From the NCBI GenBank assembly GCA_016281935.1, contig JAEEJN010000104.1, positions 1 through 43,376 of the forward strand: 43,376 nt of DNA, read 5' to 3'. Shown here in pieces: positions 4,048 through 27,666 of the stretch. The notes below the pieces were generated by a model that saw only the letters and a list, made by a program, of their open reading frames with translations, did not search any database and was not told where the DNA came from. Every line of letters starts with the position of its first letter. Position 1 is the first letter of the stretch. The DNA is from Bacillota bacterium. Its GTDB lineage: Bacteria; Bacillota; Clostridia; Christensenellales; UMGS416. Position numbers and translations under genes: made by a program.

Positions 4048-4065
4048 GTTTTCCTCTCCTTCTCC

Positions 4066-8643
<4,578 letters not shown>

Positions 8644-8653
8644 ATCCCGCCTC

Positions 8654-10069
8654 TCAGATCTCGATCTCGTCCGATCCCCGGTCCGCACCGTCCAGAAGCG
8701 GACAGACTTTTTCCAGGAACGCTTCCACCTGCTTCCCGCAGCGCCCGGTGTAGAGCGCCGGATCCAGGATCGACTTCATTTCTGATTCGCTCAGGCCAAA
8801 GGCAGGCTCGGCCGCGAGGCGCTGCAGCATGTCGCACGCGCCGCCACGCTTCATCTCTGCCGTTGCCGCCATGGAGCACTTCCGGATGACTTCATGGAGC
8901 GCCTGCCGGTCACCGCCGCGCCGGACAGCTTCCATGAGCAGGTTCTCCGTTGCGATGAAGGGCATGTATTCATCCGCCGTCCTTCGGATAATGGCTTCGT
9001 TGACGACGAGTCCGTTCGTGACGTTACGGGCGAGCCTCAGAACGGCGTCCGCGCAGAGAAAGCCTTCCGGCATGGAGATGCGCCGGTTGGCGGAATCGTC
9101 CAGAGTCCTTTCCAGCCATTGCACGGACGCTGTCATGGGTGCGTTGGCGGCATCGGCCATGAGATAGCGGGAAAGAGAGCAGATCCTCTCGCAGCGCATG
9201 GGATTCCGTTTGTACGCCATGGCGGAGGATCCGATCTGGTTTTCTTCGAACGGTTCCTCGATCTGGCGGTCATGCTGCAGCAGGCGGATGTCGTTGGCCA
9301 TCCGGTAGCAGCTCTGCGCGATGGAAGACAGGGCGTTCAGGATCCGGCTGTCAGTCTTGCGCGGGTAGGTCTGACCGCAGACGTCGAAGCAGGCGCTGAA
9401 GCCGAAATCTCCCGCGAGAGCTCTGTTCATGCGGTCGATCCTGTCCTCATCTCCGTCGAAGAGCTCAAGGAAGCTCGCTTCCGTACCCGTCGTGCCTCTG
9501 CACCCGAGAAAACGGATCTGGCTCAGCGCGAAATCGACCTCGTCGAGATCCGAAAGGAAATCCTGCATCCACAGCGTTGCACGCTTGCCGACGGTCACGA
9601 GCTGGGCCGGCTGATAATGCGTGTAGCCCAGGGTAGGCAGGTCCTTGTATCGTTCCGCGAACCCGGCCAGATTCTTCAGGACCGCCTGGATGCCGCCGCG
9701 GATATAGCGCAGCGCGTCCCGGTACAGGATGAGATCGGCGTTGTCCGTCACGTAGCAGCTCGTCGCGCCGAGATGGATGATACCCGCCGCGGAAGGCGCG
9801 ACCTTCCCATAGGCGTAGATATGGGCCATGACGTCATGACGCACTTCCTTCTCCCGCTGCCTGACGCATTCATAGTCGATATCCTCGATATGCGCACGAA
9901 GCTCGTCCACCTGTTCCTGTGTGATCGGCAGGCCGAGTTTCATCTCCTCCTCCGCCAGTGCGGCCCAGAGCCGGCGCCAGGTCCGATACCTCGTATCGGA
10001 TGAGAACAGTTCCAGCATATACAGTGAAGCATAGCGGGAAGACAGCGGGGATTCATAGCGGTCGGTCAT
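8654..10069 (-). CDS. purB: Adenylosuccinate lyase
   Basis: The enzyme cleaves fumarate from SAICAR and from adenylosuccinate, releasing the nitrogen brought in from aspartate. The 471-residue protein has the fumarase/aspartase-superfamily signature SSAMAYKRNP near residue 280 and the GATSCYVTDNADL region near 110. AGGAG lies 8 bp before the ATG. It works directly after PurC (SAICAR) and PurA (adenylosuccinate), both encoded a few kilobases upstream in the same unit. Confidence 0.93.
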   Translation of the reverse strand: MTDRYESPLSSRYASLYMLELFSSDTRYRTWRRLWAALAEEEMKLGLPITQEQVDELRAHIEDIDYECVRQREKEVRHDVMAHIYAYGKVAPSAAGIIHLGATSCYVTDNADLILYRDALRYIRGGIQAVLKNLAGFAERYKDLPTLGYTHYQPAQLVTVGKRATLWMQDFLSDLDEVDFALSQIRFLGCRGTTGTEASFLELFDGDEDRIDRMNRALAGDFGFSACFDVCGQTYPRKTDSRILNALSSIAQSCYRMANDIRLLQHDRQIEEPFEENQIGSSAMAYKRNPMRCERICSLSRYLMADAANAPMTASVQWLERTLDDSANRRISMPEGFLCADAVLRLARNVTNGLVVNEAIIRRTADEYMPFIATENLLMEAVRRGGDRQALHEVIRKCSMAATAEMKRGGACDMLQRLAAEPAFGLSESEMKSILDPALYTGRCGKQVEAFLEKVCPLLDGADRGSDEIEI

Positions 10070-10100
10070 CGTTCGTTCTCCTTTTTCTTGTTATCGTTTC

Positions 10101-10847
10101 TCATTCTTCGGACAGTGCGATCCGGATCCCCGGGTCGTAGACCGGCATGGGCAGGAGCTTGAACCGGTTCTCGGCATGCAGCCGGTCGATCCTGGCCCGT
10201 GTTTCAGGATCGTCGATCTCGCCGGTGCGGATATACCTGTCCAGGGTCTCATAGGTGAAACCCAGGTTTTCTTCGTCCGTTCTGCCTGTCAGCCCGTCGG
10301 ACGGCGGTTTGCGGACCAGGCGCTCCGGCAGTCCGAGCAGAGTGCCCAAAGCCCGGACCTCCCGGACCGTCAGGCGGCTCAGAGGACTGAAATCGCCTGC
10401 CCCGTCTCCGTACCGTGTGGCATATCCCACCCAGTCTTCCGAAAGGTTACATGTATTCGCGACCCGGCCGTTGTGGCTCTGCGCGACAGCGTACAGCGTC
10501 GCCATGCGGATCCTCGCGGGAAGGTTGATCTTCGTCTGTTCTGAAAGCGTGAAGGGCAGACTGCCCTGCAGGCCCTGAACAGCCTCCCTGATGTTGACGG
10601 TAAAATACCGGATCCCCAGATGATCCACCAGGAGCTGTGCCGAGTCGATATCGCTCTGTACCCCGTTGGGCATGAGCACGCCTATGACGCGTTCCCTCCC
10701 AAGCGCCTCGACGCAGAGGGCAGCTGTTACGGAACTGTCTTTTCCGCCGGAGATCCCGACTACGGCATTGCAGTCCGGGCCGTTCATTCGGAAGAAGTCC
10801 CGGATCCAGCGGACGCACGCGTCCTTCACCTGTTCCGCTCTGAACAT
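10101..10847 (-). CDS. nadE: NAD synthetase, ammonia-dependent
   Basis: The enzyme amidates nicotinic acid adenine dinucleotide to NAD. The P-loop GISGGKDSS lies at about residues 31-39. At about 248 residues it contains only the synthetase domain; the nitrilase-type glutaminase domain of glutamine-dependent forms is absent, so it should use free ammonia. I choose the ATG at 10847, which follows GGAGG by 8 bp; an in-frame GTG at 10856 would overlap that ribosome site. The ribosome site overlaps the purA stop, so the two are probably coupled. It is an unusual resident of a purine operon but fits the nitrogen-donor theme. Confidence 0.9.
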   Translation of the reverse strand: MFRAEQVKDACVRWIRDFFRMNGPDCNAVVGISGGKDSSVTAALCVEALGRERVIGVLMPNGVQSDIDSAQLLVDHLGIRYFTVNIREAVQGLQGSLPFTLSEQTKINLPARIRMATLYAVAQSHNGRVANTCNLSEDWVGYATRYGDGAGDFSPLSRLTVREVRALGTLLGLPERLVRKPPSDGLTGRTDEENLGFTYETLDRYIRTGEIDDPETRARIDRLHAENRFKLLPMPVYDPGIRIALSEE

Positions 10848-10852
10848 GGCGT

Positions 10853-12861
<2,009 letters not shown>

Positions 12862-12898
12862 GGTATTTCCTTTCTTCAGACATGCAGAAGACGGTCGA

Positions 12899-14719
12899 TC
12901 ATTCGACCGTCACGGATTTGGCAAGATTCTTGGGTTTGTCGATATCGCAGCCGTTCTCCCTGGCCACATGGTAGGCCAGAAGCTGCAGCGGGACGATCTC
13001 GATCACGGCAGAGAAAAGCGGATCTACCGGCGGGATGAAGAGCAGATCGTCCGCGACCGAAACGATCTGCCGGTTGCTGCGGAACGTGAGCGCAAGGACT
13101 TCCGCGCCGCGGGACTTGACCTCGACGATATTGCTCAGTGTCTTCTCCATGATGGAGGCGTTGCAGCACAGCGCGATGACCGGCTGGTGCTCCTCGATCA
13201 GAGCGATCGTACCGTGTTTGAGTTCCCCTGCGGCATAAGCCTCCGAATGAAGATAGGAGATCTCCTTCATCTTCAGGGCGCCTTCCAGCGCGACCGCGTA
13301 GTCCGTGTTTCTGCCGATGAAGAACAGCGCCTTGCTCGCGTGGTACTTTCTGGCCAGTGCAGGGATCGAAGGGTTCATGTCGATAGCCTGCTGGATCCTG
13401 CGGGGCAGTGCCTGCAGCGTATCGGTCAGCGCGGCTTCGTTCTGCAGGAGCCCCAGATGTTTTGCGATATAGGCCGCCAGCATATACAAAACGGCGATCT
13501 GAGTCGTATAGCCCTTCGTCGTCGCGACGGCGATCTCCGGGCCGGCCCAGGTATAGACGGTCCAGTCGGCCAGAGACGCGACCGTACTGCCCACAACGTT
13601 TACGATTGCCAGCGTCTTAGCGCCTTTCGACCGGCATTCCTTCAGAGCGGCGATCGTGTCGGCTGTCTCTCCGGACTGGGAAATCACGATGACCAGGGTC
13701 CCTTCGTCGATCAGGGGGTCACTGTAGCGCAGTTCACTCGCGAGTTCGACTTCGACCGGGATCCGGCACAGCCGTTCCAGGGCGTATTTCCCTGCGCAGC
13801 CCGCATAATAGGCTGAACCGCAGGCCGTGATCACGATCTTGCGGACGTTCTCCAGATGCGGGATCAGCGTCTCCAGTTCTTCGAACACGACTTCCCCGTT
13901 CCGGATCCTCGGCGCGACCGTAGCCCGGACCGCTCCGGGCTGCTCCATGATCTCCTTGAGCATGAAGTGTTCATGTCCGCCCTTTTCCGCCGCCCGGACG
14001 TCCCAGAGGACTCTGGAGATCTTTTTGCGGATCTCCTGACCCGCGCCGTCAAAAACGCGGACGGAATCCGCGTCGATCTCCGCAAACTCACCGTCTTCCA
14101 GATAGATCACGCTGCGGGTATGGCTGACCAGAGCGGTCACGTCCGAAGCGAAGAAGTTCTCACCTACCCCGATACCCAGGATCAGCGGACTCGCTTCCCT
14201 GACCGCATAGATCCTGCCCGGCTCTTCCGAACAGATGACACCGAGCGCGTAGGAACCCTGCAGCCGGTTCGAAGTCTTGATCAGCGCGTCCCGCATGTTG
14301 CCCTTGTAGTAGCGTTCGATCAGATGGACGATGACTTCCGTATCGGTCTCACTTTCGAAACGGTAGCCGCTACGGATCAGCTCATCCCGCAGAGACATAT
14401 AGTTCTCGATGATCCCGTTGTGCACGACGGCGAAACGTCCGTCATTGCTCAGATGAGGATGTGCGTTCTCCTCGGTCGGTGCCCCATGGGTCGCCCAGCG
14501 TGTGTGGCCGATCCCGGTCGTTCCGGGCAGGGCCTCACCATCCTTCGTCTTCTCGCACAGGTTTGCGATCCGGCCTTTCACCTTGCATATGGCGATTGAA
14601 CGGCCTTCCATGACCGCGATGCCCGCTGAGTCGTACCCCCTGTACTCCAGTTTCTTCAGGCCGTCCAGAAGGACCGGTGCAGCTTCCTGCGTCCCGGTAT
14701 AGCCGACGATTCCGCACAT
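12899..14719 (-). CDS. glmS: Glucosamine-6-phosphate synthase
   Basis: Glutamine:fructose-6-phosphate aminotransferase makes glucosamine-6-phosphate for peptidoglycan. The 606-residue protein has Cys2 as the class II amidotransferase nucleophile (MCGIVGYTG), two SIS sugar-isomerase domains (SQSGETADT near 350) and the invariant C-terminus [18 protein letters not shown] lies upstream of the ATG. The gap to asnB is only 30 bp, too short for the glmS ribozyme found in many Bacillota, so control is probably shared with the unit. Confidence 0.96.
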
Positions 14720-14749
14720 GATTTGCCTCCGTTGTCGTTCTTTTCCGTT

Positions 14750-16333
14750 CTATTTCCCGCTCGCCCCGTAGTTGGACAGGACACGAGCCGAGGGATCGTC
14801 CACGTCGCAGCCTTCCCAGGAACGGTTCGGCATCCAGAAGTCGACGATCATATCCGACTGTCCGGGATAGTATTTCTCAAAGATCTCCCGGTACAGCAGA
14901 GATTCTTTCGTAAAGGGGCGTGCGTGAACGTAACGCATCCTCTTCTCTTCGAATTCCGCATTCGTGTAGCATGTTTCCGCATAGGCTTTGAGGTCGTCCA
15001 CCATGGAATGACCGACCGCGTCCGAGAACGCCGCCTTCTCCCGCCAGAGGATGGAATCCGGCAGCAGACCAAGGCCTTCGAAAGCATGGCGGAGCAGATA
15101 CTTGCCCTTGCCGTAGCGGTTCACTTTCATCCCCGGATCCAGCTCCATGACATAACGGACAAAAGCCAGATCCCCGAAAGGAACCCTGGCCTCCAGGGAG
15201 TTGACGGAGATGCAGCGGTCCGCGCGCAGCACATCGTACATGTGCAGTTCCCGGATCCGCTTCTCAGCTTCTTCCTGGAAGGCTGCCGGAGAAGGCGCGA
15301 AGTCCGTGTATTTGTACCCGAACAGTTCGTCGGAGATCTCTCCGGTCAGAAGGACGCGGACGTCGGTTGTCTCATGGATCGCTTTGCAGACGAGATACAT
15401 GCCGATGCTGGCCCTGATCGTCGTGATGTCATAGGTCCCCAGAAGGTGGATGACCTCCTCCAGCGAGGCGATGACGTCGTCCGGCGTCATGAAGACTTCC
15501 GTGTGAAGGCTGCCGATATGCGCAGCGACTTCCCGCGCGTATTTCAGGTCAATCGCATCCTCCCGCATCCCGATGGCGAACGTCCGGATCGGCTCACGGC
15601 TCTCCCGTGCGGCAATCGCGCAGACAAGGGAAGAATCCAGACCGCCCGAAAGCAGGAAACCGACCTTGGCGTCGGACACCAGGCGCTTTTTCACGCCTTC
15701 CGTCAGAAGTTTCCGGATCTCGGAACAGGCGGTCTCCAGTCCCTCCCGGCGCACGGTCTCCGGGCTGGAGGGATCGCTGTATCGAACGAATCTTCCGTCC
15801 TTGTAATAATGTCCGGGCGGAAAAGGCATGATCCGGTCCGTCAGTCCGACCAGGTTCTTTGCCTCGCTCGCGAACAGGACCGTACCGTCCGCACGGTACC
15901 CATAGTACAGGGGACGGATCCCGATCGGGTCGCGGGCGGCGATGTATTCTCCCGTTTCACCATCGTAAAGGATGCAGGCGAATTCCGCGTCCAGTTTCGC
16001 GAACATTTCCGTTCCGTACTCGAAATAAAGAGGCAGAAGGATCTCGCAGTCGCTGTCCGACCGGAAAACGTATCCCTTGTTCCTGAGATTCTCCCGTTCC
16101 TTCTCGAATCCGTACAGTTCCCCGTTGCACACGGCGAAACTCCCGTCCAGTTCGAAAGGCTGCATGCCGGACGGTGTCAGGCCCATGATCGACAGTCGGT
16201 GGAAGCCAAGGAGCCCCTTTCCCGTATCGACGATCCTGCTGCAGTCCGGCCCTCTCGAGACCGTACGGGAGAATCCCTCTTTGAAAACGTCAATATCCGC
16301 CGTGCTTCCGCACCAGCCCATGATGGAACACAT
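14750..16333 (-). CDS. asnB: Asparagine synthase (glutamine-hydrolysing)
   Basis: AsnB converts aspartate, ATP and glutamine to asparagine. Cys2 (MCSIMGWCG) is the amidotransferase nucleophile; the C-terminal synthetase domain carries LLSGGLDSSL near residue 230. The length (527) fits the short E. coli type. AGGAGG lies 8 bp before the ATG. A T-box leader with a likely asparagine specifier fills the gap to amt (16344-16582), so expression of this gene, and perhaps those downstream, should rise when tRNA-Asn is uncharged. It ends in TAG, showing that TAG is a normal stop here. Confidence 0.94.
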   Translation of the reverse strand: MCSIMGWCGSTADIDVFKEGFSRTVSRGPDCSRIVDTGKGLLGFHRLSIMGLTPSGMQPFELDGSFAVCNGELYGFEKERENLRNKGYVFRSDSDCEILLPLYFEYGTEMFAKLDAEFACILYDGETGEYIAARDPIGIRPLYYGYRADGTVLFASEAKNLVGLTDRIMPFPPGHYYKDGRFVRYSDPSSPETVRREGLETACSEIRKLLTEGVKKRLVSDAKVGFLLSGGLDSSLVCAIAARESREPIRTFAIGMREDAIDLKYAREVAAHIGSLHTEVFMTPDDVIASLEEVIHLLGTYDITTIRASIGMYLVCKAIHETTDVRVLLTGEISDELFGYKYTDFAPSPAAFQEEAEKRIRELHMYDVLRADRCISVNSLEARVPFGDLAFVRYVMELDPGMKVNRYGKGKYLLRHAFEGLGLLPDSILWREKAAFSDAVGHSMVDDLKAYAETCYTNAEFEEKRMRYVHARPFTKESLLYREIFEKYYPGQSDMIVDFWMPNRSWEGCDVDDPSARVLSNYGASGK

Positions 16334-16343
16334 CTGCGTAACC

Positions 16344-16582: not shown

Positions 16583-16609
16583 CTCTGACGCCTTTGGTCT
16601 GTTTATCTG

Positions 16610-18334
16610 TTACTCGACGTCCTGGAGAGCAGCGTAGCCCTCCTCGCCCGTACGGACCTTGACGACGTTTTCCACGTCATACACGAAGATCTTTCCGTCT
16701 CCGATATGACCCGTATACAGGACTTTCTTTGCCGTTTCGATCACATCCCTGACGGGAATGGCAGACACGACGATGTCCACCTGCACCTTCGGCCTGAGAT
16801 CTGTCTCCACAGCGACGCCGCGGTAGAACTCTGTATGCCCGTTCTGCATGCCGTAGCCCATGACGTGAGACACGGTCATGCCCGTGATGCCCAGTTTCGC
16901 CATGGCGTCCTTCAAAGCATAGAGGCGTTCTTCCTTGAAAATGATCTCGACTTTGGTGAACTTGTGCCCGTCGGAAGGGAAGGCCGGCTCTCTCTTTACG
17001 GGGACGGCTTCTGCCGGCGGAACGGTTCCTGTCACAGCCACAACGGGCTCCCCGGTACCGAATTCAGCGTACTTGTCGACAGCGGGCATGAAGTCCGCAT
17101 AGGCGCTGGGCAGTCCGTGTTCGCTGACGTCCAGGCCGCTCAGTTCGTCTTCCGCATCCGCCCGCAGGAAGTTCAGCTTCTTCAGGAGGAGGAAGAACGA
17201 AAGCATGGTCACACAAGCCCAGACGGCTACGGCTGCGAAGCCGAGGAGCTGGATCCCGAGCTGTGTGAAATCCCCGGTATAAAACAGTCCGCGCAGGCCT
17301 GCAGGAGCTGCAGGATTCGCGAAGAGCCCGACGGCGACCGTACCCCAGACACCGTTCGCGCAGTGGACTCCCACGGCTCCGACGGGGTCGTCGACATGGA
17401 ACTTCAGGTCGAGCATTTCCACGACGACTACGACGAGGACGCCCGCTACGAGTCCGACTGCCGCGGCCCCCACGGCGTCGAAAGCGTCGCATCCCGCGGT
17501 CACGGCGACCAGGCCGGCCAATGCAGCGTTGAGGCACATGGAAACGTCCGGTTTCCCGTTCTTGATCCAGGTATAGACAAGCGTCGTGCAGGTGGCGACG
17601 GAAGGCGCGATCGTCGTCGTGAGGAAGATCGCCGAGAGTTCGGACGGCGTCGTAGCAGCGGCACCGTTGAAACCGTACCAGCCGAGCCACAGAATGAACA
17701 CGCCCAAAGCGCCCAGGGGGATCGAATGTCCGGGGATCGCGTTGACTTTCGTAACTTTTCCGCTGCGGTCGGTCACATATTTCCCGATTCGGGGACCCAG
17801 TACGACCGCACCGATCAGAGCGGCGATGCCGCCCACCATGTGGATGGCGCAGGATCCGGCGTAGTCATGGAATCCGAGCTGACTCAGCCAGCCTCCGCCC
17901 CAGATCCAATGCGCTTCGATGGGATAGATGACGAGGCTGATGACGGCTGAATAGACGCAGTAAGCAGAGAATTTCGTGCGTTCGGCCATGGCGCCCGACA
18001 CGATCGTTGCGGTCGTAGCGCAGAACACGAGGTTGAACACGAAATAACTCGCATCCGTAAAGCCTTCCGCCGGAGACTGTATGAATTCTCCGAAGCGGGT
18101 GAAAAGCTGCAGGTTCGGGACTCCGATAAGCCCGAAGAACGTATCTTCACCCATCATGAGGGTGTAGCCCAGGAGGGAGAAGACCACGGTCCCGATGCAG
18201 AAGTCCATGAGGTTCTTCATGATGATGTTGCCCGCGTTCTTGGCCCGGGTGAAGCCGGTCTCGACCATGGCGAAACCGGCCTGCATCCAGAAAACCAGAG
18301 CGGCACCGATTAGAAACCAGAATTCAACAGACAT
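16610..18334 (-). CDS. amt: Ammonium transporter fused to a PII signalling domain
   Basis: The first part, to about residue 410, is an Amt/MEP/Rh channel with about eleven membrane segments; DYAGSCAIHMVGG holds the conserved Asp and first pore His, and VHCANGVWGT the second. After a linker, about residues 455-574 form a complete PII (GlnB/GlnK) domain (KVEIIFKEERLYALKDAM, GHTEFYRG, RPKVQVDIVV). Gln39 and Lys58 equivalents for ATP/2-oxoglutarate binding are kept, but the Tyr51 equivalent that is uridylylated in enterobacteria is Val. PII normally plugs Amt when nitrogen is sufficient; here the regulator is tethered. It begins 10 bp after glnN, with its ribosome site overlapping the glnN stop. 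Confidence 0.93.
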   Translation of the reverse strand: MSVEFWFLIGAALVFWMQAGFAMVETGFTRAKNAGNIIMKNLMDFCIGTVVFSLLGYTLMMGEDTFFGLIGVPNLQLFTRFGEFIQSPAEGFTDASYFVFNLVFCATTATIVSGAMAERTKFSAYCVYSAVISLVIYPIEAHWIWGGGWLSQLGFHDYAGSCAIHMVGGIAALIGAVVLGPRIGKYVTDRSGKVTKVNAIPGHSIPLGALGVFILWLGWYGFNGAAATTPSELSAIFLTTTIAPSVATCTTLVYTWIKNGKPDVSMCLNAALAGLVAVTAGCDAFDAVGAAAVGLVAGVLVVVVVEMLDLKFHVDDPVGAVGVHCANGVWGTVAVGLFANPAAPAGLRGLFYTGDFTQLGIQLLGFAAVAVWACVTMLSFFLLLKKLNFLRADAEDELSGLDVSEHGLPSAYADFMPAVDKYAEFGTGEPVVAVTGTVPPAEAVPVKREPAFPSDGHKFTKVEIIFKEERLYALKDAMAKLGITGMTVSHVMGYGMQNGHTEFYRGVAVETDLRPKVQVDIVVSAIPVRDVIETAKKVLYTGHIGDGKIFVYDVENVVKVRTGEEGYAALQDVE

Positions 18335-18344
18335 ATGGGCCTCC

Positions 18345-20441
18345 TTACCTGACGCTGAAGAGGATGTCCCCGTAAGTCGGGAAGGGCCAGTAGCTCTTCG
18401 CCGTCAGAAGCTCGGCTTCGTCGCAGGGGATCCTCAGTTCCGTCATCCCGGGAAGCACGGTATCCCTGATGAGAGCGGACTCGTACACGATATCCTCGGT
18501 CATGCCGCATCCCAGGAGGGCCTTCTCCAGATCATTGCTCTTCTCGACGATCTTGTCGGTCAGGGCCGAGAGGCGGGCGATCAGTTCGGACTCATAGGAG
18601 CAGGCGAGGCCCGGGAACGCCGCCTTCTTCGCAGCCATCTGGGCCGCCAGATCCGCCGTGAAGCGGGTGATCGCCGGCGCGATGCGCTTGTGGACCATGT
18701 TGATCATGGTATTCGCTTCGATCACGACGCTCTTGCAGTAGTTCTCCAGCATGATGTCACGTCTGGATCTCAGTTCGTCTTCCGTGAACACGCCCAGGGA
18801 CGTGAGCATGCGGACGTTCTTGGGATCCATGAGATGCGGCATGCAGTCGGCCGTTGTCCTGTAGTTCAGGAGCCCGCGTTCCTGCGTGGCTTCCCGGATC
18901 CACGCCTCGTCATAACCGTTCCCGTTGAAGATGATCCGTCTGTGTTCCCGGATCGTTTCCTTGATCATCTCATGCAGGGCCGTCTCGAAATCTTCCGCCT
19001 GTTCCAGCCTGTCCGCATAGATCCTCAGGCTCTCGGCGACCGCGCTGTTGAGCATGATGTTGGCGCATGCGATGCTGTTGGAGGAGCCCAGCATGCGGAA
19101 CTCGAACTTGTTGCCCGTGAAGGCAAAAGGAGACGTACGGTTGCGGTCCGTCGTATCACGGTTGAACTTGGGCAGGACGTCGACACCGAGCTTCATCTGC
19201 ATGCGCTCGGCTCCCTCGTAGGGCGTATCCGTCTCGATCGCCCGCAGAACGGCATCGAGCTCATCTCCCAGGAAGATGGAGATAACGGCGGGAGGCGCTT
19301 CGTTGGCACCCAGTCTGTGGTCGTTGCCCGCGGTCGCGACAGAGATGCGCAGCAGATCCTGATAATCGTCCACGGCCTTGATGACCGCGCAGAGGAAGAG
19401 CAGGAACTGGGCGTTCTCGTACGGCGTATCCCCGGGAGACAGCAGATTGACGCCGCTGTCGGTCGCGATCGACCAGTTGTTGTGCTTGCCGGAACCGTTC
19501 ACGCCTGCAAAGGGCTTTTCGTGCAGCAGGCAGACGAGTCCGTGCCTCGCGGCGACTTTCTGCATGATCTCCATCGTCAGCTGGTTGTGATCCGTCGCGA
19601 TATTGGTCGTGGTATAGATAGGCGCCAGCTCGTGCTGAGCGGGGGCTACCTCGTTGTGTTCGGTCTTGGCGAGGATCCCGAGCTTCCAGAGTTCATCGTT
19701 CAGATCCTCCATGAAGGCAGCGACGCCGGGCTTGATCACGCCGAAGTAATGATCGTCCAGTTCCTGCCCCTTGGGCGGTTTGGCCCCGAAGAGCGTGCGC
19801 CCGGTGAAGCGCAGATCAGGCCTCTGGTCATACATCTCTTTCGTGATGAGGAAATACTCCTGCTCGGGTCCCACGGAGGAAACGACGCGTTTGGCGCTGT
19901 CGTTGCCGAACAGGCGCAGGATCCGCAGAGCCTGACGGCTCAGGACTTCCATGGATCGGAGCAGAGGCGTCTTCTTGTCCAGCGCATGACCTCCGTAGGA
20001 ACAGAAGGCCGTCGGGATGCAAAGCGTCTTCCCCTTGATGAACGCGTAGGACGTGGGATCCCATGCGGTATAGCCGCGGGCCTCGAAGGTCGCGCGCAGA
20101 CCGCCGGACGGGAAGGAAGAAGCATCCGGCTCGCCTTTGATCAGTTCTTTGCCGGAGAATTCCATGATGACGCTTCCGTCGGGAGCCGGCGCGATGAAGC
20201 TGTCGTGCTTTTCGGCCGTGATCCCGGTCAGCGGCTGGAACCAGTGGGTGAAATGGGTCGCGCCTTTGGCGACCGCCCAGTCCTTCATGGCCTCCGCAAC
20301 GGCATTGGCCACGGTGATGTCGAGTTCTTTCCCCTCGTCGATTGTTTTTCTCAGGGATGCATACACGTCGGCGGACAGTGTGGCCCGCATGACACGGTCA
20401 TCGAAGACCTGGCTTCCGAAATAGTCCGATACAGTACTCAT
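18345..20441 (-). CDS. glnN: Glutamine synthetase, type III
   Basis: GSIII joins ammonia to glutamate using ATP. The 698-residue length is typical of type III, far longer than GSI. Family segments seen are [27 protein letters not shown] and [22 protein letters not shown] precedes the ATG. This is the first gene of the long leftward unit and is followed after 10 bp by the amt-PII fusion, so uptake and capture of ammonium are made together. Its leader (20442-20597) carries two ANTAR-type hexaloop hairpins and a terminator, pointing to antitermination control. Confidence 0.95.
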
Positions 20442-20455: not shown

Positions 20456-20514
20456 AAAAAAATAATTAAAGGCAAAGACAGCTTTCGTACGATACAAAAG
20501 ACGCCTTTGCCTTT
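20456..20514 (-). terminator. Leader terminator in front of glnN
   Basis: On the minus strand a 10-bp outer stem (20514-20505 with 20477-20468) and an 8-bp inner stem (20500-20493 with 20489-20482) are followed by AATTATTTTTTT just before the glnN ribosome site. Its 5' arm is the same sequence used by hexaloop hairpin P2 (20496-20515), so the two folds exclude each other. Confidence 0.75.
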
Positions 20515-20515
20515 T
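20496..20515 (-). promoter_or_regulatory. ANTAR-type hexaloop hairpin P2 in the glnN leader
   Basis: On the minus strand AAAAGGC pairs with GTCTTTT (7 bp, one G-U) around the loop AAAGGC. A at loop position 1 and G at position 4 match the known ANTAR antiterminator signature. The hairpin covers the 5' arm of the leader terminator, as P2 does in known EutV/NasR-type targets. Confidence 0.75.
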
Positions 20516-20528
20516 TATTCATCCTGCG

Positions 20529-20557
20529 GCCCATTCTCCCGGAAAAGGAGAAAGGGC
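20529..20557 (-). promoter_or_regulatory. Alternative stem in the glnN leader
   Basis: TTCTCC/GGAGAA and GCCC/GGGC arms form a 10-bp stem with one U-U mismatch and a 7-nt loop. It uses bases of the 3' arm of the hairpin at 20552-20588 and so would exclude it while leaving the hexaloop hairpin at 20577-20594 free. Confidence 0.45.
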
Positions 20558-20588
20558 GTCCCCGAGTCCGAAACTCGAAGACGCCCTT
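20552..20588 (-). promoter_or_regulatory. Strong competing hairpin in the glnN leader
   Basis: A 9-bp outer stem (20580-20588 with 20552-20560) and a 5-bp inner stem (20573-20577 with 20563-20567) lie just after the transcription start. It overlaps the loop and 3' arm of hexaloop hairpin P1, so only one of the two can form. The tract after it is pyrimidine-rich but a poor terminator T-run. Confidence 0.6.
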
Positions 20589-20594
20589 GCCTTC
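20577..20594 (-). promoter_or_regulatory. ANTAR-type hexaloop hairpin P1 in the glnN leader
   Basis: On the minus strand GAAGGC pairs with GTCTTC (6 bp, one G-U) around the loop AAGGGC, again with A1 and G4. It begins within a few bases of the expected transcription start and lies about 60 nt before P2, giving the tandem P1-P2 order of ANTAR targets. Confidence 0.7.
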
Positions 20595-20603
20595 ACGAAC
20601 GGG

Positions 20604-20632
20604 ATTATACTTCATGGTTTTGCTGCTGTCAA
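20604..20632 (-). promoter_or_regulatory. Promoter of the glnN unit
   Basis: A perfect consensus promoter on the minus strand: TTGACA (20632-20627), 17-bp spacer, TATAAT (20609-20604). Transcription should begin near 20597, giving a leader of about 155 nt before the glnN ATG. Confidence 0.9.
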
Positions 20633-20706
20633 CCCCCTTTTTTTGCAATTTTGAAACTGCATCCTGCATATTCTTGCTTTGTCAGACCTGAAATCTGTAA
20701 TTTTGC

Positions 20707-20735
20707 TTGACAGGTTGCAGGAACGGCATTATAAT
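20707..20735 (+). promoter_or_regulatory. Promoter of the glt unit
   Basis: A perfect consensus promoter: TTGACA (20707-20712), 17-bp spacer, TATAAT (20730-20735). Transcription should begin near 20742, about 85 nt before the first glt start codon. It is divergent from the equally perfect glnN promoter about 75 bp away. Confidence 0.9.
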
Positions 20736-20742
20736 CGCTGCA

Positions 20743-20762
20743 GATGAGCAAAGGCGTTCATT
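20743..20762 (+). promoter_or_regulatory. ANTAR-type hexaloop hairpin in the glt leader
   Basis: GATGAGC pairs with GTTCATT (7 bp, two G-U) around the loop AAAGGC, the same six-base loop, with A1 and G4, as P2 of glnN. It overlaps the 5' arm of the leader terminator at 20750-20800, so its formation would prevent termination. I could not find a second hexaloop hairpin on this side. Confidence 0.65.
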
Positions 20763-20800
20763 CCATGCGGCTGCACCGCGCGGAAATGAGCGCCTTTTTT
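20750..20800 (+). terminator. Leader terminator in front of the glt genes
   Basis: A long imperfect stem (20750-20764 with 20782-20797) capped by GCGG/CCGC is followed by TTTTTT (20795-20800). It lies between the promoter and the first gene, the arrangement of transcription attenuation. Confidence 0.8.
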
Positions 20801-20826: not shown

Positions 20827-21921
20827 ATGATGAGAGAAGGTCTGATCCGCATCCCCTCCGGATGTGCGATCGCAGCTGTCATATCCCGGAGCGGAGAAAG
20901 GATGTCCGGAGACCTGATCGTGAAGGCCATGCGGCCCATGCACGACAGGAGCAACGGACTGGGCGGCGGCTTCGCAGGCTACGGTATCTATCCGGAATAT
21001 AAAGATTATTACGCCCTGCATCTGTTCTTCGACAGCCGCACCGTACGCAAAGAATGCGAGGCATTCCTGAAGGAATACTTCGAGATCGTCGGATCCGAGG
21101 TGATCCCTACGAGGAAGATACCCGAGATCACGGACGAGCCGATCATATGGAGGTATTTCGTGGCACCCCTTCAGTCCATGCTCGCAAGCTTGCAGCTGGA
21201 TGAAAAGGAACTGGTTGCCCGCACCGTCATGCGGATCAACACCTCGATGGACGGCGCCTATGTGTTCTCCAGCGGAAAGAACATGGGGACTTTCAAAGCG
21301 GTGGGCTTCCCCGAAGATGTCGGCGTTTTCTACCGTCTTGAGGAATATGCGGGCTATTCCTGGACAGCGCACGGCCGTTATCCCACGAATACTCCGGGAT
21401 GGTGGGGCGGCGCCCATCCCTTCACGCTGCTCGATTATTCCGTCGTTCACAACGGTGAGATATCCTCTTACGACGCCAACCGCCGTTTCATCGAGATGTT
21501 CGGATACAAGTGCACGCTGCAGACGGACACGGAAGTCATCACCTACATTCTGGACTATCTCGTACGTGTTCAGGGCCTGACCCTGACGGAGGCTGCGAAC
21601 GTCATCGCGGCTCCGTTCTGGAGTACGATCAATGCGGAAAAGGATGAAGAAGCCAGAAAACGCCATGCCTATCTGCGCACCGTCTTCCCCAGTCTGCTCG
21701 TGACCGGCCCCTTCTCGATCGTCCTCGGCTTCACAGGCGGGATCATGGCCCTCAACGACCGTCTCAAGCTCCGTTCCATGGTCGTGGGAGAAAAAGGCGA
21801 CCGAGTCTACATCGCGAGCGAAGAAGCATCCATCCGCACGATGGCTCCGGACGCAGAGAACGTCTGGGCTCCCGCCGGTGGCGAGCCCGTGATCATAAGG
21901 GTCGAGGAAGGAAGGTACTGA
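20827..21921 (+). CDS. Glutamate synthase, glutaminase domain (stand-alone polypeptide)
   Basis: This 364-residue protein corresponds to the class II amidotransferase domain at the N-terminus of large glutamate synthases; it releases ammonia from glutamine for the FMN subunit encoded next. The nucleophile is probably Cys13 in IPSGCAI, so a 12-residue propeptide must be removed. The segments WTAHGRYPTN, VVHNGEISSYDAN and LQTDTEVITYILD match the glutamine-binding pocket. AAAGGAAAGGA precedes the paired ATGATG start. Its stop overlaps the next start (TGATG). It is the first gene of the glt unit, behind an attenuator leader. Confidence 0.88.
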   Translation: MMREGLIRIPSGCAIAAVISRSGERMSGDLIVKAMRPMHDRSNGLGGGFAGYGIYPEYKDYYALHLFFDSRTVRKECEAFLKEYFEIVGSEVIPTRKIPEITDEPIIWRYFVAPLQSMLASLQLDEKELVARTVMRINTSMDGAYVFSSGKNMGTFKAVGFPEDVGVFYRLEEYAGYSWTAHGRYPTNTPGWWGGAHPFTLLDYSVVHNGEISSYDANRRFIEMFGYKCTLQTDTEVITYILDYLVRVQGLTLTEAANVIAAPFWSTINAEKDEEARKRHAYLRTVFPSLLVTGPFSIVLGFTGGIMALNDRLKLRSMVVGEKGDRVYIASEEASIRTMAPDAENVWAPAGGEPVIIRVEEGRY

Positions 21922-23426
21922 TGGGCATCGATTTCATGTATCCTGAGTTTGAAGTGGTCCGGAACGAGGACCGCTGCATTGCATGCCGCGTATGCGAGCG
22001 GCAGTGCTCAAACGAAGTCCATTTCTTCAGCCCCGAACGTGGCCGCATGATGAGCGATGAGACAAAATGCGTCAACTGCCAGCGCTGTGTGTCCCTGTGT
22101 CCCACGAGGGCTCTGAAGATCGTCCGCAGCGACTGCGTCCTGCGCGAGAACGCAAACTGGCGCAACGAGACGATTCGTGAAGTCTACAAACAGGCAGGAT
22201 CCGGCGGCGTTCTCCTGTCTTCCATGGGAAACCCCAATCCCCTGCCCGTCTATTGGGACAGGATCCTCATCAATGCGTCCCAGGTCACGAATCCCCCGAT
22301 CGATCCGCTGAGGGAACCCATGGAAACTCACGTGACACTGGGAAAGAAGCCGGACAGGATCCGCAGGGACGCGGACGGGAAGATCGTTCCCGATCTGCCA
22401 CCGCAGATCAGTCTGTCGATGCCCGTCATGTTCTCCGCCATGAGCTATGGTTCCATTTCCTACAATGCGCACGCGTCTCTGGCCCGGGCCGCGACGAAAC
22501 TGGGCATCGTATACAATACGGGCGAGGGCGGACTTCACGAAGACTTCTACCGTTACGGTCCGAACACCGTCGTGCAGGTCGCGAGCGGCCGCTTTGGCGT
22601 GCACGAGGACTATCTTCAGGCAGGAGCCGCGATCGAGATCAAGATGGGCCAGGGAGCCAAACCGGGCATCGGAGGCCACCTGCCCGGTGCGAAGATCGTG
22701 GGTGACGTTTCCAGAACAAGGATGATCCCCGAAGGTTCGGACGCCATCTCCCCCGCTCCTCATCATGACATCTATTCGATCGAGGACCTGCGCCAGCTCG
22801 TCTATTCCCTCAAGGAAGCGACGCAGTACGAAAAGCCCGTCATCGTCAAAGTCGCCGCGGTACACAACATCGCGGCCATCGCGAGCGGTATCGCGAGAAG
22901 CGGAGCCGACATCATCGCGATCGACGGATTCAGAGGCGGCACAGGTGCAGCGCCTACCCGCATCCGGGACAACGTGGGCATCCCCATCGAACTGGCCCTG
23001 GCCGCCGTCGACCAGCGTCTCCGGGATGAGGGCATTCGCAACAGCGTGTCCCTTGTAGCCGGCGGTTCCATCCGCAGCGCGGCAGACGTTGTCAAAGCAG
23101 TGGCGCTCGGTGCAGACGCCTGTTACATCGCCACTGCAGCCCTTCTGGCCCTGGGCTGCCATCTGTGCAGGACATGTCAGACCGGAAAATGCAACTGGGG
23201 CATTGCAACCCAGAGGCCCGATCTCGTCAGGAGACTCAATCCGGACATCGGAGAAGAGCGTCTCGTGAACCTGATGACCGCCTGGCGGCATGAGATCATG
23301 GAGCTCATGGGCGGGATGGGCATCAACTCCATCGAAGCACTCAGAGGGAATCGTCTCATGCTGCGCGGCGTGGGTCTCAACGAAAAGGAACTGGAGATCC
23401 TCGGGATCTCCCATGCGGGGGAATGA
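21921..23426 (+). CDS. gltB: Glutamate synthase, FMN-binding synthase subunit
   Basis: The 501-residue protein is the synthase core that reductively aminates 2-oxoglutarate to glutamate. An N-terminal extension has two 4Fe-4S motifs (Cys19/22/25/29 and Cys50/53/56/60). The FMN/2-oxoglutarate barrel follows (SAMSYGSIS, GEGGLHEDFYRYG, KMGQGAKPGIGGHLPG, IDGFRGGTGAAP), then the cysteine cluster CHLCRTCQTGKC that in this family binds the 3Fe-4S centre. It resembles the archaeal-type synthase subunit rather than the 1500-residue bacterial protein. The two flanking genes encode the missing glutaminase and electron-transfer parts. Confidence 0.92.
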   Translation: MGIDFMYPEFEVVRNEDRCIACRVCERQCSNEVHFFSPERGRMMSDETKCVNCQRCVSLCPTRALKIVRSDCVLRENANWRNETIREVYKQAGSGGVLLSSMGNPNPLPVYWDRILINASQVTNPPIDPLREPMETHVTLGKKPDRIRRDADGKIVPDLPPQISLSMPVMFSAMSYGSISYNAHASLARAATKLGIVYNTGEGGLHEDFYRYGPNTVVQVASGRFGVHEDYLQAGAAIEIKMGQGAKPGIGGHLPGAKIVGDVSRTRMIPEGSDAISPAPHHDIYSIEDLRQLVYSLKEATQYEKPVIVKVAAVHNIAAIASGIARSGADIIAIDGFRGGTGAAPTRIRDNVGIPIELALAAVDQRLRDEGIRNSVSLVAGGSIRSAADVVKAVALGADACYIATAALLALGCHLCRTCQTGKCNWGIATQRPDLVRRLNPDIGEERLVNLMTAWRHEIMELMGGMGINSIEALRGNRLMLRGVGLNEKELEILGISHAGE

Positions 23427-23430
23427 GCCG

Positions 23431-23871
23431 ATGAAACGTGTCTATGTGAACGAAGAGTGGTGCCTTGCCTGTCATCTTTGCGAATACAACTGCGCCTTCG
23501 CCAATTCCGGGGTGAGCGATATGGTCCTGGCCCTCAAAGGCAAATCCATCTATCCCCGCATCCACGTAGAAGGAGATGAAAGGATCTCCTATGCCGTATC
23601 CTGCAGGCACTGCACGGACCCTGTATGCGTCAGGAGCTGCATCGCCGGTGCGATCTCCAAAGACGGCGGTGTCGTCCGGATCGACAGGGAGCGCTGCGTA
23701 GGGTGTCTTACCTGCGTCCTGGTATGCCCTTACGGTGCGCTGGCTCCCGGCGAGGACGGCGTCATGCAGAAATGCGAGCTGTGCCTGAAGAACGCCTGCG
23801 GAGAACCTGCATGCGTCAAGGGATGTCCCAACCGAGCGATCGTCTATGAGGAACGGGAGGAAGCGCTGTGA
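23431..23871 (+). CDS. Four-cluster ferredoxin-type electron-transfer protein
   Basis: The 146-residue protein has four cysteine groups of the DmsB/HycB iron-sulphur type: Cys11/14/17/21, CRHCTDPVCVRSC, CVGCLTCVLVCP and CELCLKNACGEPACVKGCP. I start at the ATG at 23431, 4 bp after the gltB stop, where the sequence matches the family. It is likely to pass electrons between the FAD oxidoreductase encoded next and the glutamate synthase FMN subunit. Its stop overlaps the next start (GTGA). Confidence 0.87.
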   Translation: MKRVYVNEEWCLACHLCEYNCAFANSGVSDMVLALKGKSIYPRIHVEGDERISYAVSCRHCTDPVCVRSCIAGAISKDGGVVRIDRERCVGCLTCVLVCPYGALAPGEDGVMQKCELCLKNACGEPACVKGCPNRAIVYEEREEAL

Positions 23872-25100
23872 AGAATTATGTCATCGTCGGCAACGGCATC
23901 GCGGCCGCAGGCTGCATCGAAGGGATCCGTTCCCTGGACCGGGAATCTCCGATCACCGTCGTGTCCGAAGAAAAAAGAGACGTTTACTGCCGTCCTCTCA
24001 TCTCCTATTATCTGGAAGGAAAGACCGATCTGACGCGCATGCGCTACCGCAGCGAATCCTTTTACAGAGACATGGGCTGCCGTGTGCTGTACGGACGCAC
24101 AGCCGTATCGGCGGAACCGGAAAAATCCCGGATCGTCCTGGGCGACGGGACGGTACTTCCTTATTCGGATCTGTGCGTCGCCACAGGATCCACCCCTTTC
24201 GTTCCTCCGTTTGAAGGTCTGGAAACAGTCGGCAACGTCTTCTCCTTCATGACGCTGGACGACGCGCTCGCACTGGAAGAGGCACTTTTCCCGGACAGCC
24301 GTGTCCTGATCGTCGGTGCCGGTCTAATCGGTCTGAAGTGCGCGGAAGGGATCCTGGAAAGAGTGAAAAGCGTCACGGTCTGTGACCTCGCGGACCGGAT
24401 CCTGTCCAGCATCCTCGATTCCGAATGTGCGGCGCTCATGCAGAAGCATCTGGAAGCCCACGGAATCCGTTTCCTCCTGAACGACTCCGCAGTCCGATTC
24501 GCAGGCGACACCGCCTGGATGAAAAGCGGCGCCGAAGAGAAATTCGATATCCTCGTGCTCGCAGTAGGTGTCCGGCCGAACGTCTCGATCGTCAGGGACG
24601 CCGGCGGTGAAATCGGACGCGGCATCCGGGTCGATACGGAAATGCACACGTCCATCCCCCACGTCTTTGCTGCCGGCGACTGTACGGAAAGCTTCGACGC
24701 TTCATCCGGACAGAACAGGGTGATGGCCATCCTCCCCAACGCCTATATGCAGGGACATGCTGCCGGCGTAAACATGGCCGGCGGATCCGAACGCCTCGAC
24801 AGCATGATACCCATGAACTCCATCGGATTCTTCGGACTGCACGCCATGACTGCCGGGAGCTACGAAGGAGAAACCGAAGAAGAGAAAACCGACGGTTCCA
24901 TTCACAGGCTGTTCGTAAAGGACGGATACCTGAAGGGCTTCATCCTTATCGGATGCAGCGACCGTGCAGGCATTTACACTTCCCTCATCCGCGACAGGAT
25001 CCCTCTCGAGTCCCTGGACTTCGAAATGCTGAAAAAAGCCGCAACGACCGCAGCATTTCCCGCGGACATACGTAGAAAAAAGTTTGGAGGCATTGTATAA
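23868..25100 (+). CDS. FAD-dependent NAD(P)H oxidoreductase of the glutamate synthase complex
   Basis: The 410-residue protein has an N-terminal FAD dinucleotide fold (VIVGNGIAAAG), a central NAD(P) fold (VLIVGAGLIGLKCAEG near 148) and the FAD-binding VFAAGDC motif. It resembles the pyridine nucleotide-disulphide oxidoreductases of the nitrite reductase and rubredoxin reductase group and lacks the redox-active CxxxxC pair. Position suggests that it takes the place of the usual GltD small subunit. The start is GTG at 23868, preceded by GGGAGG and overlapping the previous stop. Confidence 0.85.
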   Translation: MKNYVIVGNGIAAAGCIEGIRSLDRESPITVVSEEKRDVYCRPLISYYLEGKTDLTRMRYRSESFYRDMGCRVLYGRTAVSAEPEKSRIVLGDGTVLPYSDLCVATGSTPFVPPFEGLETVGNVFSFMTLDDALALEEALFPDSRVLIVGAGLIGLKCAEGILERVKSVTVCDLADRILSSILDSECAALMQKHLEAHGIRFLLNDSAVRFAGDTAWMKSGAEEKFDILVLAVGVRPNVSIVRDAGGEIGRGIRVDTEMHTSIPHVFAAGDCTESFDASSGQNRVMAILPNAYMQGHAAGVNMAGGSERLDSMIPMNSIGFFGLHAMTAGSYEGETEEEKTDGSIHRLFVKDGYLKGFILIGCSDRAGIYTSLIRDRIPLESLDFEMLKKAATTAAFPADIRRKKFGGIV

Positions 25101-25101
25101 T

Positions 25102-25836
25102 ATGGTATCCGACAGGATTTACATCAACGCGGAAGATATGGATCACCGATCCCTGAACAAGGCGATACGGGCCTCAACCGGTCCCTGCACCGTGGAAGGC
25201 TGCTGCGGACAACGTTTTCTCGCTTCCGGAATGTCCGGCAGGGACATCATCTTCAGGGGCATCCCGGGCAATGCGCTGGGAGCCTATCTGAACGGCGGCA
25301 CGCTAACTGTCGAAGGCAATGCGCAGGATGCGGTCGGCGACACGATGAACGACGGTACGATCGTCATTCGAGGAAACATCGGTGACGCCGCAGGATATGC
25401 CATGCGAGGCGGGAAGATCTATGTCCGCGGAAGTGCGGGCTACCGCGCCGGGATCCACATGAAGGCCTACAGGGACAAGGTGCCCCTCATGGTGATCGGC
25501 GGAAAAGCGGGGAGCTTCCTCGGCGAATACCAGGCCGGCGGACTGATCGTCGTTCTCAATCTTGACCGGCCGGATGAGAAGTGCGTAGGCTATTTCCCCT
25601 GCACAGGGATGCACGGAGGCAGAATGTTCCTGCGCTCCGACTGCAGAGACGTGGTCTTCCCCCCGCAGGTCACGGCACGCCCGGCCCGGGAGGATGAACT
25701 GCAGGAACTCCGTTCCATGCTTGAAGAATACTGTACGCTGTTCGACCTGGATTCCGATACCGTCCTGTCGTCTCCCTTCACCGTCGTGACGCCCGACAGC
25801 AGCAATCCGTACAGACAGATGTACGTACCCAATTAG
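25102..25836 (+). CDS. Glutamate synthase GXGXG-domain subunit
   Basis: The product, about 244 residues, consists of the right-handed beta-helix (GXGXG) domain found at the C-terminus of large glutamate synthases, with repeated turns such as GNAQDAVGDTMNDG, GNIGDAAGYAMRGG and GSAGYRAG. It is structural and probably completes the split enzyme. I choose the ATG at 25102 just after the upstream stop; GGAGG lies 11 bp before it. An in-frame start at 25084 would overlap the previous gene and the ribosome site. It ends in TAG. Confidence 0.87.
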   Translation: MVSDRIYINAEDMDHRSLNKAIRASTGPCTVEGCCGQRFLASGMSGRDIIFRGIPGNALGAYLNGGTLTVEGNAQDAVGDTMNDGTIVIRGNIGDAAGYAMRGGKIYVRGSAGYRAGIHMKAYRDKVPLMVIGGKAGSFLGEYQAGGLIVVLNLDRPDEKCVGYFPCTGMHGGRMFLRSDCRDVVFPPQVTARPAREDELQELRSMLEEYCTLFDLDSDTVLSSPFTVVTPDSSNPYRQMYVPN

Positions 25837-25848: not shown

Positions 25849-27060
25849 ATGAAGTATTCCAGGGATGATGTCATCCAGTACGCACAGGAAGAAGACGTGA
25901 AGTTCATCCGTCTTGCCTTCTGCGACGTATTCGGGACACAGAAGAACGTCGCGATCATGCCGGACGAACTGCCCAGAGCCTTTGAGCACGGCATCGCGTT
26001 CGACGCTTCCGCGATCGCGGGATTCGGTGACGAAATGCACAGCGATCTTCTCCTTCATCCCGAAGCGGATACTCTGGTGCCCCTGCCTTGGCGTCCTGAG
26101 CACGGACGCGTGGTCCAGATGCTGTCGGAGATCACCCATCCGGACGGAACGCCTTTTGCCTGCGACACGCGCAGTCTGCTGAAAAAGGCGGTCATGGACG
26201 CAGAGAAGAAAGGCATCCGGTTCACTTTCGGAACGGAACAGGAATTCTATCTTTTTCTTCTGGATGAGAACGGCAAACCGACCCGCATCCCCTGCGATGA
26301 TGCCGGTTATATGGACATCGCACCCGAGGACCATTGTGAGAACGTGCGGCGCGAAGTCTGTCTGACCCTGGAGCAGATGGGCATCTATCCCGAAAGCTCA
26401 CACCACGAAGAGGGCCCCGGTCAGAACGAGATCGATTTCCGCTACGCGGACGCTCTGGTTGCAGCCGATGACGCCATGACTTTCCAGCGCGTCGTTAAAA
26501 CGGTCGCATACAGGAACGGGCTCGCCGCTGATTTCACTCCCAAGCCGCTGGGTGACGCTCCCGGAAACGGTTTCCATATCAACATGTCCCTTCGTCCTTT
26601 CGGAGACGGAGCTGTTTTCTCCCATATGATCGCGGGCATCCTTCGCCATGCCTCTGCCATGACCGCATTCCTGAATCCCCTGGATGATTCCTACAGACGG
26701 CTGGGAAGCCATAAGGCTCCCCGCTGGGTCTCCTGGTCCGCCGAGAACCGTTCACAGCTCGTGCGGATCCCGGCTGCATCCGGAGAATACCGCCGTGCCG
26801 AACTCAGATCCCCGGATCCGTCCGCAAATCCCTATCTGGCTTTTGCGCTTATGATCTATGCGGGTCTGGACGGGATCACAAACCGCATCCCCCTATGCGA
26901 ACCATCCGACATCAACCTGTATGCAGCCGGCGAAGCCGTCCTGGCACGTTTCGAAAAGCTTCCGGCAACCCTTCAGGAGGCGCGTGCTGCGGCAGCCTCC
27001 AGCGAATTCATCCGTTCTCACATTCCTTCCGAGATACTGGATATTTACTGCGGACGGTAA
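25849..27060 (+). CDS. glnA: Short GlnA-like protein, possibly a glutamine sensor rather than an enzyme
   Basis: The 403-residue protein aligns along its length with type I glutamine synthetase (about 444). Metal ligands appear kept (Glu130, Glu132, Glu187, Glu194, His243, Glu318), as do Arg301, Arg306 and Arg320. Several active-site features differ: the flap Glu (PGYEAP in GlnA) is Lys289 in SHKAP, the glutamate-loop Asn is Pro238, FDGSS is FDASA, and the feedback-related Arg62 segment and the final 25 or so residues are missing. These comparisons are from memory. AGGAGG precedes the ATG, and the ANTAR gene follows after 21 bp. It could be a weak or specialised ligase, or a non-catalytic sensor. 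Confidence 0.82.
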   Translation: MKYSRDDVIQYAQEEDVKFIRLAFCDVFGTQKNVAIMPDELPRAFEHGIAFDASAIAGFGDEMHSDLLLHPEADTLVPLPWRPEHGRVVQMLSEITHPDGTPFACDTRSLLKKAVMDAEKKGIRFTFGTEQEFYLFLLDENGKPTRIPCDDAGYMDIAPEDHCENVRREVCLTLEQMGIYPESSHHEEGPGQNEIDFRYADALVAADDAMTFQRVVKTVAYRNGLAADFTPKPLGDAPGNGFHINMSLRPFGDGAVFSHMIAGILRHASAMTAFLNPLDDSYRRLGSHKAPRWVSWSAENRSQLVRIPAASGEYRRAELRSPDPSANPYLAFALMIYAGLDGITNRIPLCEPSDINLYAAGEAVLARFEKLPATLQEARAAAASSEFIRSHIPSEILDIYCGR

Positions 27061-27081: not shown

Positions 27082-27666
27082 ATGAGCCTGAAAGAGCGAA
27101 TCTACAGCGTACTCATCGTCTCCGCTGCGGAAAAACTGAATAGCGCTCTCTCATCTCTTTTGGGAGGCCCCCGCTTCCAGCCTGTGAAAACCGTTTCCGG
27201 CATAGGAGCGGCAGAGAGGGCATGGAACGAACGAAGCTATGACTTCGTCATCGTCAACTCTCCTCTGCCTGATGACGCGGGCATCCGCTTCGCCATCGAC
27301 ACCGCCGGGGCGGAAGGAGCTGTCGTGCTGCTCCTCGTACGCACGGAAGTCCATGATGAGGTCCGGGAAAGAGTCACGCCCCACGGAGTGTTCACGCTTG
27401 CAAAGCCGCTGTCCCTTCCCCTGGTCTCTCTCGCTCTGGACTGGATGGAGAGCGCAAGGGAAAGCATGCGCAAATCCCAGAAGAAAACTCTTTCCTTTGA
27501 GGAAAAAATGGAAGAGATCCGGGTCGTCAACCGGGCGAAGTGGCTCCTCATCTCCGAACTGAAGATGGACGAGCCTCAGGCTCACCGCTACATCGAGAAA
27601 ACAGCGATGGACCGCTGCATCTCACGAAAGGAAGTCGCTGAAGAGGTCATAAGGATATACAGCTGA
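27082..27666 (+). CDS. ANTAR-domain antitermination regulator with a degenerate receiver
   Basis: The 194-residue protein has a receiver-like domain (about 5-122), a linker, and an ANTAR RNA-binding domain (about 139-193: KMEEIRVVNRAKWLLI, then MDEPQAHRYIEKTAM and the final helix). At the usual phosphoacceptor site the residue is Asn59 (FVIVNSPLP), and the acidic pair near residue 14 is Ser-Ala, while Lys108 (AKP) is kept. It therefore resembles AmiR, whose pseudo-receiver answers to a partner rather than to phosphorylation. It is the last gene of the glt unit. Likely targets are the hexaloop hairpins in the glt and glnN leaders, which would make its own synthesis self-reinforcing. Confidence 0.88.
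   Translation: MSLKERIYSVLIVSAAEKLNSALSSLLGGPRFQPVKTVSGIGAAERAWNERSYDFVIVNSPLPDDAGIRFAIDTAGAEGAVVLLLVRTEVHDEVRERVTPHGVFTLAKPLSLPLVSLALDWMESARESMRKSQKKTLSFEEKMEEIRVVNRAKWLLISELKMDEPQAHRYIEKTAMDRCISRKEVAEEVIRIYS

Follow-up and report, generated by a model that had tools for sequence, protein, structure and literature searches.

We identified two divergent nitrogen-assimilation operons in an uncultured gut-type Clostridia bacterium, each preceded by a leader that is, with good confidence, an ANTAR-controlled transcription attenuator with one hexaloop hairpin per terminator; the glnN leader would carry two such attenuators in series. Judging from sequence, the leader hairpins are very probably recognised by the ANTAR protein encoded in the neighbouring gene. 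In the account of Stutz 2007 given within PMC6316151, NitR of Clostridium saccharobutylicum is an ANTAR regulator proposed to induce the GS/GOGAT genes by antitermination under nitrogen limitation, and ANTAR targets ahead of glutamate synthase and glutamine synthetase genes have already been described (PMC3369931). An ANTAR switch for GS/GOGAT operons is therefore not new. What is new here is the single-hexaloop layout, its position at about +1 and its wide conservation.

Divergent operons and their leaders

The window, by which we mean the whole stretch of 43,376 nucleotides that was analysed, contains the glnN unit on the minus strand and the glt unit on the plus strand, back to back (Table 1). 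The region between them spans 385 bp, from the glnN start codon (ATG at 20441, minus strand) to that of the first glt gene (ATG at 20827, plus strand). The minus-strand unit combines ammonium uptake with many glutamine- or ammonia-using enzymes, and the gaps between its genes from 2069 to 16333 are at most 37 nt or overlapping. These genes were named by Pfam, except glmS, which was named from its own sequence. glnN, amt and then asnB, glmS, nadE, guaA, pyrG and purF, together with purA, purB and purC, lie in one gene run (2069-20441, minus strand). The transporter and the P-II signalling domain of amt-PII share a single reading frame, and glutamate synthase is encoded by separate GATase, core, ferredoxin, oxidoreductase and GXGXG genes.

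Table 1. Genes and regulatory features of the two operons (positions in the window; energies are predicted)
Feature	Position	Strand	Remarks
Ammonia/glutamine-use genes, part 1: asnB, glmS, purC, purA, nadE, purB	2069..16333	-	
Ammonia/glutamine-use genes, part 2: guaA, pyrG, purF, dapF, aminotransferase	2069..16333	-	
Ammonium transporter fused to P-II domain (amt-PII)	16610..18334	-	gene annotation by profile search
glnN, type III glutamine synthetase	18345..20441	-	gene annotation by profile search
Terminator T2, overlapping H2	20468..20514	-	-24.5 kcal/mol; then AAUUAUUUUUUU
glnN hexaloop H2, loop AAAGGC	20496..20515	-	-4.4 kcal/mol; 60 nt after H1
Terminator T1, overlapping H1	20550..20590	-	17 pairs, -28.7 kcal/mol; weak U-tract UCUCCUUUUC
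glnN hexaloop H1, loop AAGGGC	20576..20595	-	-7.0 kcal/mol
glnN promoter, TTGACA-17-TATAAT	20604..20632	-	12/12 consensus match
glt promoter, TTGACA-17-TATAAT	20707..20735	+	12/12 consensus match
glt hexaloop hairpin, GAUGAGC[AAAGGC]GUUCAUU	20743..20762	+	-5.6 kcal/mol; at about +1
glt intrinsic terminator, 5' arm starting with the hexaloop	20750..20797	+	-29.4 kcal/mol; U-rich tail after
Glutamate synthase split genes: GATase, core, Fer4, oxidoreductase, GXGXG	20827..25836	+	
glnA, type I glutamine synthetase	25849..27060	+	immediately 5' of the ANTAR gene
NitR-like ANTAR protein	27082..27666	+	194 aa; pseudo-receiver, coiled coil and ANTAR

Both promoters of the divergent region point outwards, and a hairpin with a six-base loop follows right after each -10 box. 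The perfect glt promoter places the start of the glt hairpin at about +1. The preliminary description had proposed three hairpins of one design, and we found them: in each, the loop carries A1 and G4 and is closed by C-G, followed by a G.U pair. In all three elements, the 5' arm of a terminator consists of the loop plus the 3' half of the hexaloop hairpin. This overlap had been claimed for H2 and the glt hairpin, correctly in both cases; H1, which had not been credited with one, also overlaps a terminator. Folding of both leaders predicts the hexaloops and their competing terminators for glt, H1 and H2, and since the terminators are predicted to be far stronger than the hexaloops (Table 1), termination should be the default.

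Three hexaloop-terminator elements in 385 bp are poorly explained by chance. A descriptor combining a hexaloop with an overlapping terminator recovers all three in this region, while among 2000 dinucleotide shuffles of the region at least one element arose in 12 and two never did; shuffles of the whole window gave a mean of 0.33 matches. A search of the intergenic region against Rfam, at both gathering and E-value thresholds, returned nothing relevant and no riboswitch match. Within the same genome, a search allowing up to 2-3 mismatches returned the three window copies and noise, with no further hexaloop copies.

Leaders in related genomes

Scanning for relatives with the window's ANTAR protein yielded 77 loci, mostly from metagenome-assembled genomes of rumen and gut Clostridia, with one cultured isolate, Merdimmobilis hominis An559 (L089), whose layout is that of the window. 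About 40 related loci keep the hairpin design, including the loop AANGGC and a consensus promoter, and draw on one pair of stem families. The first family is of glt type, AATGAGC[AAAGGC]GTTCATT; the second, of glnN type, reads AAGGC[AANGGC]GTCTT. The core motif is direct in 35 of the 41 glt leaders that have upstream sequence, and in 35/35 where the GATase gene comes first; in the other six, a gene is inserted ahead of the GATase gene, and the element precedes the inserted gene in five, and in the sixth the contig ends too early. In L039, L040, L041, L043 and L057, a gene for a protein of about 860 aa separates the hexaloop leader from the GATase gene of glt; the first 250 residues of this protein gave no Pfam match. 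Of the 37 related glt elements, 35 have a consensus-like promoter whose 3' end lies 13-15 nt ahead of A1, so these hairpins also begin at about +1. The first glnN element in relatives likewise has a consensus-like promoter and a hairpin at about +1.

The number of hexaloops per terminator sets these leaders apart from known ANTAR targets, which are closely linked hexaloop pairs, the linker of eut leaders measuring 5-12 nt (PMC3369931); later target searches used linkers of 2-25 nt (PMC8164766). In eutP, both hexaloops are required and linkers of 3 or 14 nt abolish control (PMC3369931), and EutV likewise needs both, a linker extended by 20 nt abolishing antitermination (PMC8934654). When set against the dual-hexaloop target (Ramesh 2012), our leaders have the A1/G4 hexaloop closed by C-G and, by prediction and covariation, a hairpin mutually exclusive with an intrinsic terminator, but not two hexaloops joined by a short linker. 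A rival reading makes the glnN tandem pair a classical P1/P2 unit as in EutV, in which H1 would serve recruitment and H2 would be the antitermination hairpin. Two hexaloops are indeed present in 21 of 39 glnN leaders, yet their linkers measure 44-112 nt in relatives and 60 nt in the window, whereas EutV control fails with 3 or 14 nt (PMC3369931) or with +20 nt (PMC8934654). Each hexaloop of these two-hexaloop leaders, H1 included, has its own terminator, the glnN attenuator is single and compact in some relatives, and only one hexaloop is present in glt leaders and in many glnN leaders. A partner hexaloop within reach, with at least 3 Watson-Crick pairs, was found for only 2 of 38 glt elements (1.5 expected) and 1 of 59 glnN elements (4.5 expected); a looser threshold gave 6 of 38 (2.6 expected) and 3 of 59 (7.4 expected). 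We therefore consider the P1/P2 arrangement improbable. With terminators of their own and linkers of this length, the glnN leaders are best understood as single attenuators or as two arranged in series. Given the EutV pair requirement and the affinity of NasR for a single hairpin, about 12-fold below that for two (PMC7496416), one hexaloop alone might seem too weak; in the EutV-RNA structure the dimer grips one hexaloop, and its authors left the reach of single-hexaloop targets open (PMC8934654).

The expectation of covarying hexaloop stems in relatives was borne out in part: the hairpins are conserved, but the stems are near-invariant. Paired stem changes are few, comprising a TGAAGC/GTTTCA lineage and the difference between the glt-type and glnN-type families, and covariation within the stem is limited because the stems hardly vary. 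Because the search pattern itself specified A1, G4 and the closing C-G, their invariance adds no independent support. Covariation with the 3' arm of the terminator is seen at the free loop positions L3, L5 and L6. L3 pairs with that arm in 106 of 110 elements, against 82.7 expected by permutation, although the terminator finder favours paired arms; it nonetheless tolerates mismatches, which are seen at the closing C. The L3 pairs are of the types A-U, G-C, G.U, U-A and C-G. This covariation between loop and terminator is stronger evidence than that within the stems. The same observations weigh against reading the palindrome at about +1 as a repressor's DNA operator, with the terminator overlap secondary. 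A 7-6-7 inverted repeat at +1 with a strongly conserved sequence would suit an operator, but the second pair is a G.U wobble in 108/110 glt- and glnN-type elements, which breaks the DNA symmetry, the loop is asymmetric as well as covarying with the terminator arm, H2 lies about 80 nt inside the transcript, and the elements co-occur with an RNA-binding protein. An operator is thus very improbable.

Co-occurrence was assessed in the 61 nearest genomes with strict patterns for the two stems, a real leader being one with a promoter, a terminator and an adjoining glnN or glt. Real leaders are present in 9/9 genomes with a close NitR homologue (E about 1e-39 or better), and the strict patterns found none in the other 52; as this threshold was chosen after the data were seen and the compared genomes are related, 9/9 versus 0/52 is not an independent probability. 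Matches in G242, G096, G136 and G001, considered as exceptions, had neither the promoter-terminator layout nor a glt or glnN neighbour and were set aside as chance. Among 396 genomes of the order, most of them judged by pattern alone, the glt pattern occurs in 15 of 34 with a close homologue versus 6 of the 362 others (Fisher p 1.4e-13). Four of these six are chance matches lacking the layout, G395 has a split gene, and G351 is an incomplete assembly (83% complete) in which the leaders are present, the ANTAR gene was not detected and the contig ends just past the leaders. Attenuators read by some other RNA-binding protein or by a metabolite, with the ANTAR gene a bystander, would fit stems that are conserved beyond the needs of ANTAR recognition alone, and the binding of the ANTAR protein is itself a prediction; but given the empty Rfam search, the A1/G4 loop and closing C-G that form the ANTAR signature in EutV mutagenesis (PMC3369931) and NasR SELEX (PMC7496416), and leaders that track close NitR homologues, we give this explanation very little credence.

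A NitR-like ANTAR protein

The glt unit does end in an ANTAR gene, as had been noted, and it is the sole one found in this genome (88% complete). The ANTAR domain of its product (PF03861) scores 61.3 bits against a curated cut-off of 27.3, and the Response_reg profile scores below its own cut-off. The best PDB matches of its AlphaFold model (pLDDT 87) are Rv1626, EutV and AmiR. N59 occupies the phosphoacceptor Asp position, with Asn in 23/24 family members, and the N-terminal acidic pair of the receiver is absent, so the receiver is a pseudo-receiver. The protein thus lacks the phosphoacceptor Asp and acidic pocket of an EutV-type response regulator, and it has the receiver fold without a phosphorylation site, the coiled coil and the ANTAR domain of the AmiR/NitR type. 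The missing Asp points to control unlike that of EutV and more like that of AmiR/NitR. Comparison supports the earlier claim of ANTAR-type targets, in that the elements compete with terminators, are conserved and track the ANTAR gene; the analogy with EutV does not extend to a dual hexaloop or to the receiver.

AmiR of Pseudomonas is a pseudo-receiver ANTAR protein controlled by its partner AmiC. Our protein shares its domain plan, but the gene neighbour here is glnA and the regulon is ammonium assimilation. RNA contacts of EutV include K149, E160, M172, Y164 and R142 (PMC8934654), of which K149, E160 and M172 align with the invariant K153, E164 and M176 of the NitR-like protein, so that the K/E/M contacts are retained as in EutV. 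R142 is replaced by I146 and Y164 by H168; AmiR also has His at the latter position.

The ANTAR gene adjoins glnA, on its 3' side, in 70 of 71 related loci, an adjacency that is only suggestive of control by a binding partner. The NitR gene of C. saccharobutylicum is also linked to glnA. The NitR system resembles ours in pairing an ANTAR protein with GS/GOGAT genes; here, glnN and an extensive run of glutamine-use genes lie opposite as well. In L036, L083 and L105, where glnA-nitR stands apart from glt, no hexaloop was found ahead of the pair on that strand. A close ANTAR gene is also present in two records titled Spirochaetaceae and Spirochaetales (L084 and L088), in L088 together with the complete leader system, through either horizontal transfer or mis-binning.

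Proposed mechanism and regulon

From the observed anatomy, conservation, covariation and ANTAR co-occurrence, we infer the following course of events. By default, the nascent RNA would form the strong terminator, and transcription would halt ahead of the genes. When active, the NitR-like ANTAR protein would bind the hexaloop hairpin at the extreme 5' end of the transcript, and the bound hairpin would withhold AANGGCGU, the bases that open the terminator 5' arm. Polymerase could then read through into the glt-glnA-nitR or glnN-amt units. Each terminator would be served by a single hexaloop, with glnN having two such attenuators serially. The leaders resemble EutV/eutP leaders in the A1/G4 hexaloop, closing C-G, 3'-side GU and terminator overlap (PMC3369931, PMC8934654); they differ in having one hexaloop per terminator, a hairpin at about +1 and a regulator whose receiver has no phosphoacceptor Asp.

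Control would be switched on under nitrogen limitation. As the receiver is closed to ordinary phosphorylation and the gene almost always follows glnA, the signal most likely arrives through a partner protein, possibly GlnA in its feedback-inhibited state. That GlnA might do the sensing is suggested by gene order, by the inactive receiver and by the analogy of Bacillus GS-TnrA (PMC6316151). Tentatively, a single 5'-end hexaloop might suffice with a constitutive ANTAR dimer, which GlnA, sensing glutamine, would hold or release; we offer this as a possibility and consider it less likely than not.

In relatives, hexaloop-terminators of their own precede guaA (L061), pyrG (L083, L095), purA (L074), gdhA (L067, L074, L077) and amt (L034). 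There, guaA, pyrG and purA lie elsewhere than in an operon of the 18-kb type, yet carry their own copy, the pattern to be expected of a regulon set by the element itself and not by gene order alone. A single switch for the entire 18-kb operon, as first proposed, was not established, because a T-box leader interrupts the unit between amt-PII and asnB (16364-16597, minus strand; RF00230, 63.2 bits, E 1.4e-13, below the gathering score). The place at which one might look for an Asn specifier reads AAC; as the leader lacks a downstream U-tract, it may act on translation. Genes from asnB onward may therefore have a second control point.

A search with a dual-hairpin model has already revealed ANTAR regulons in Desulfotomaculum that include glutamate synthase and further nitrogen genes (PMC3369931). 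There, as here, several nitrogen operons per genome share ANTAR targets, but that search would skip single-hexaloop leaders. Dual-hairpin genome scans would miss the leaders described here, and ANTAR regulons of Clostridia may consequently be under-counted. The current ANTAR model requires two close hexaloops, and our leaders bear on whether one is sufficient; as natural, widely conserved single-hexaloop attenuators with well-placed promoters, they make this question directly testable. They also suggest nitrogen control through RNA, not through a DNA-binding regulator. If a single hexaloop suffices and GlnA is the sensor, the result would be a glutamine-gated RNA regulon spanning ammonia uptake, GS/GOGAT, GDH and glutamine-dependent amidotransferases.
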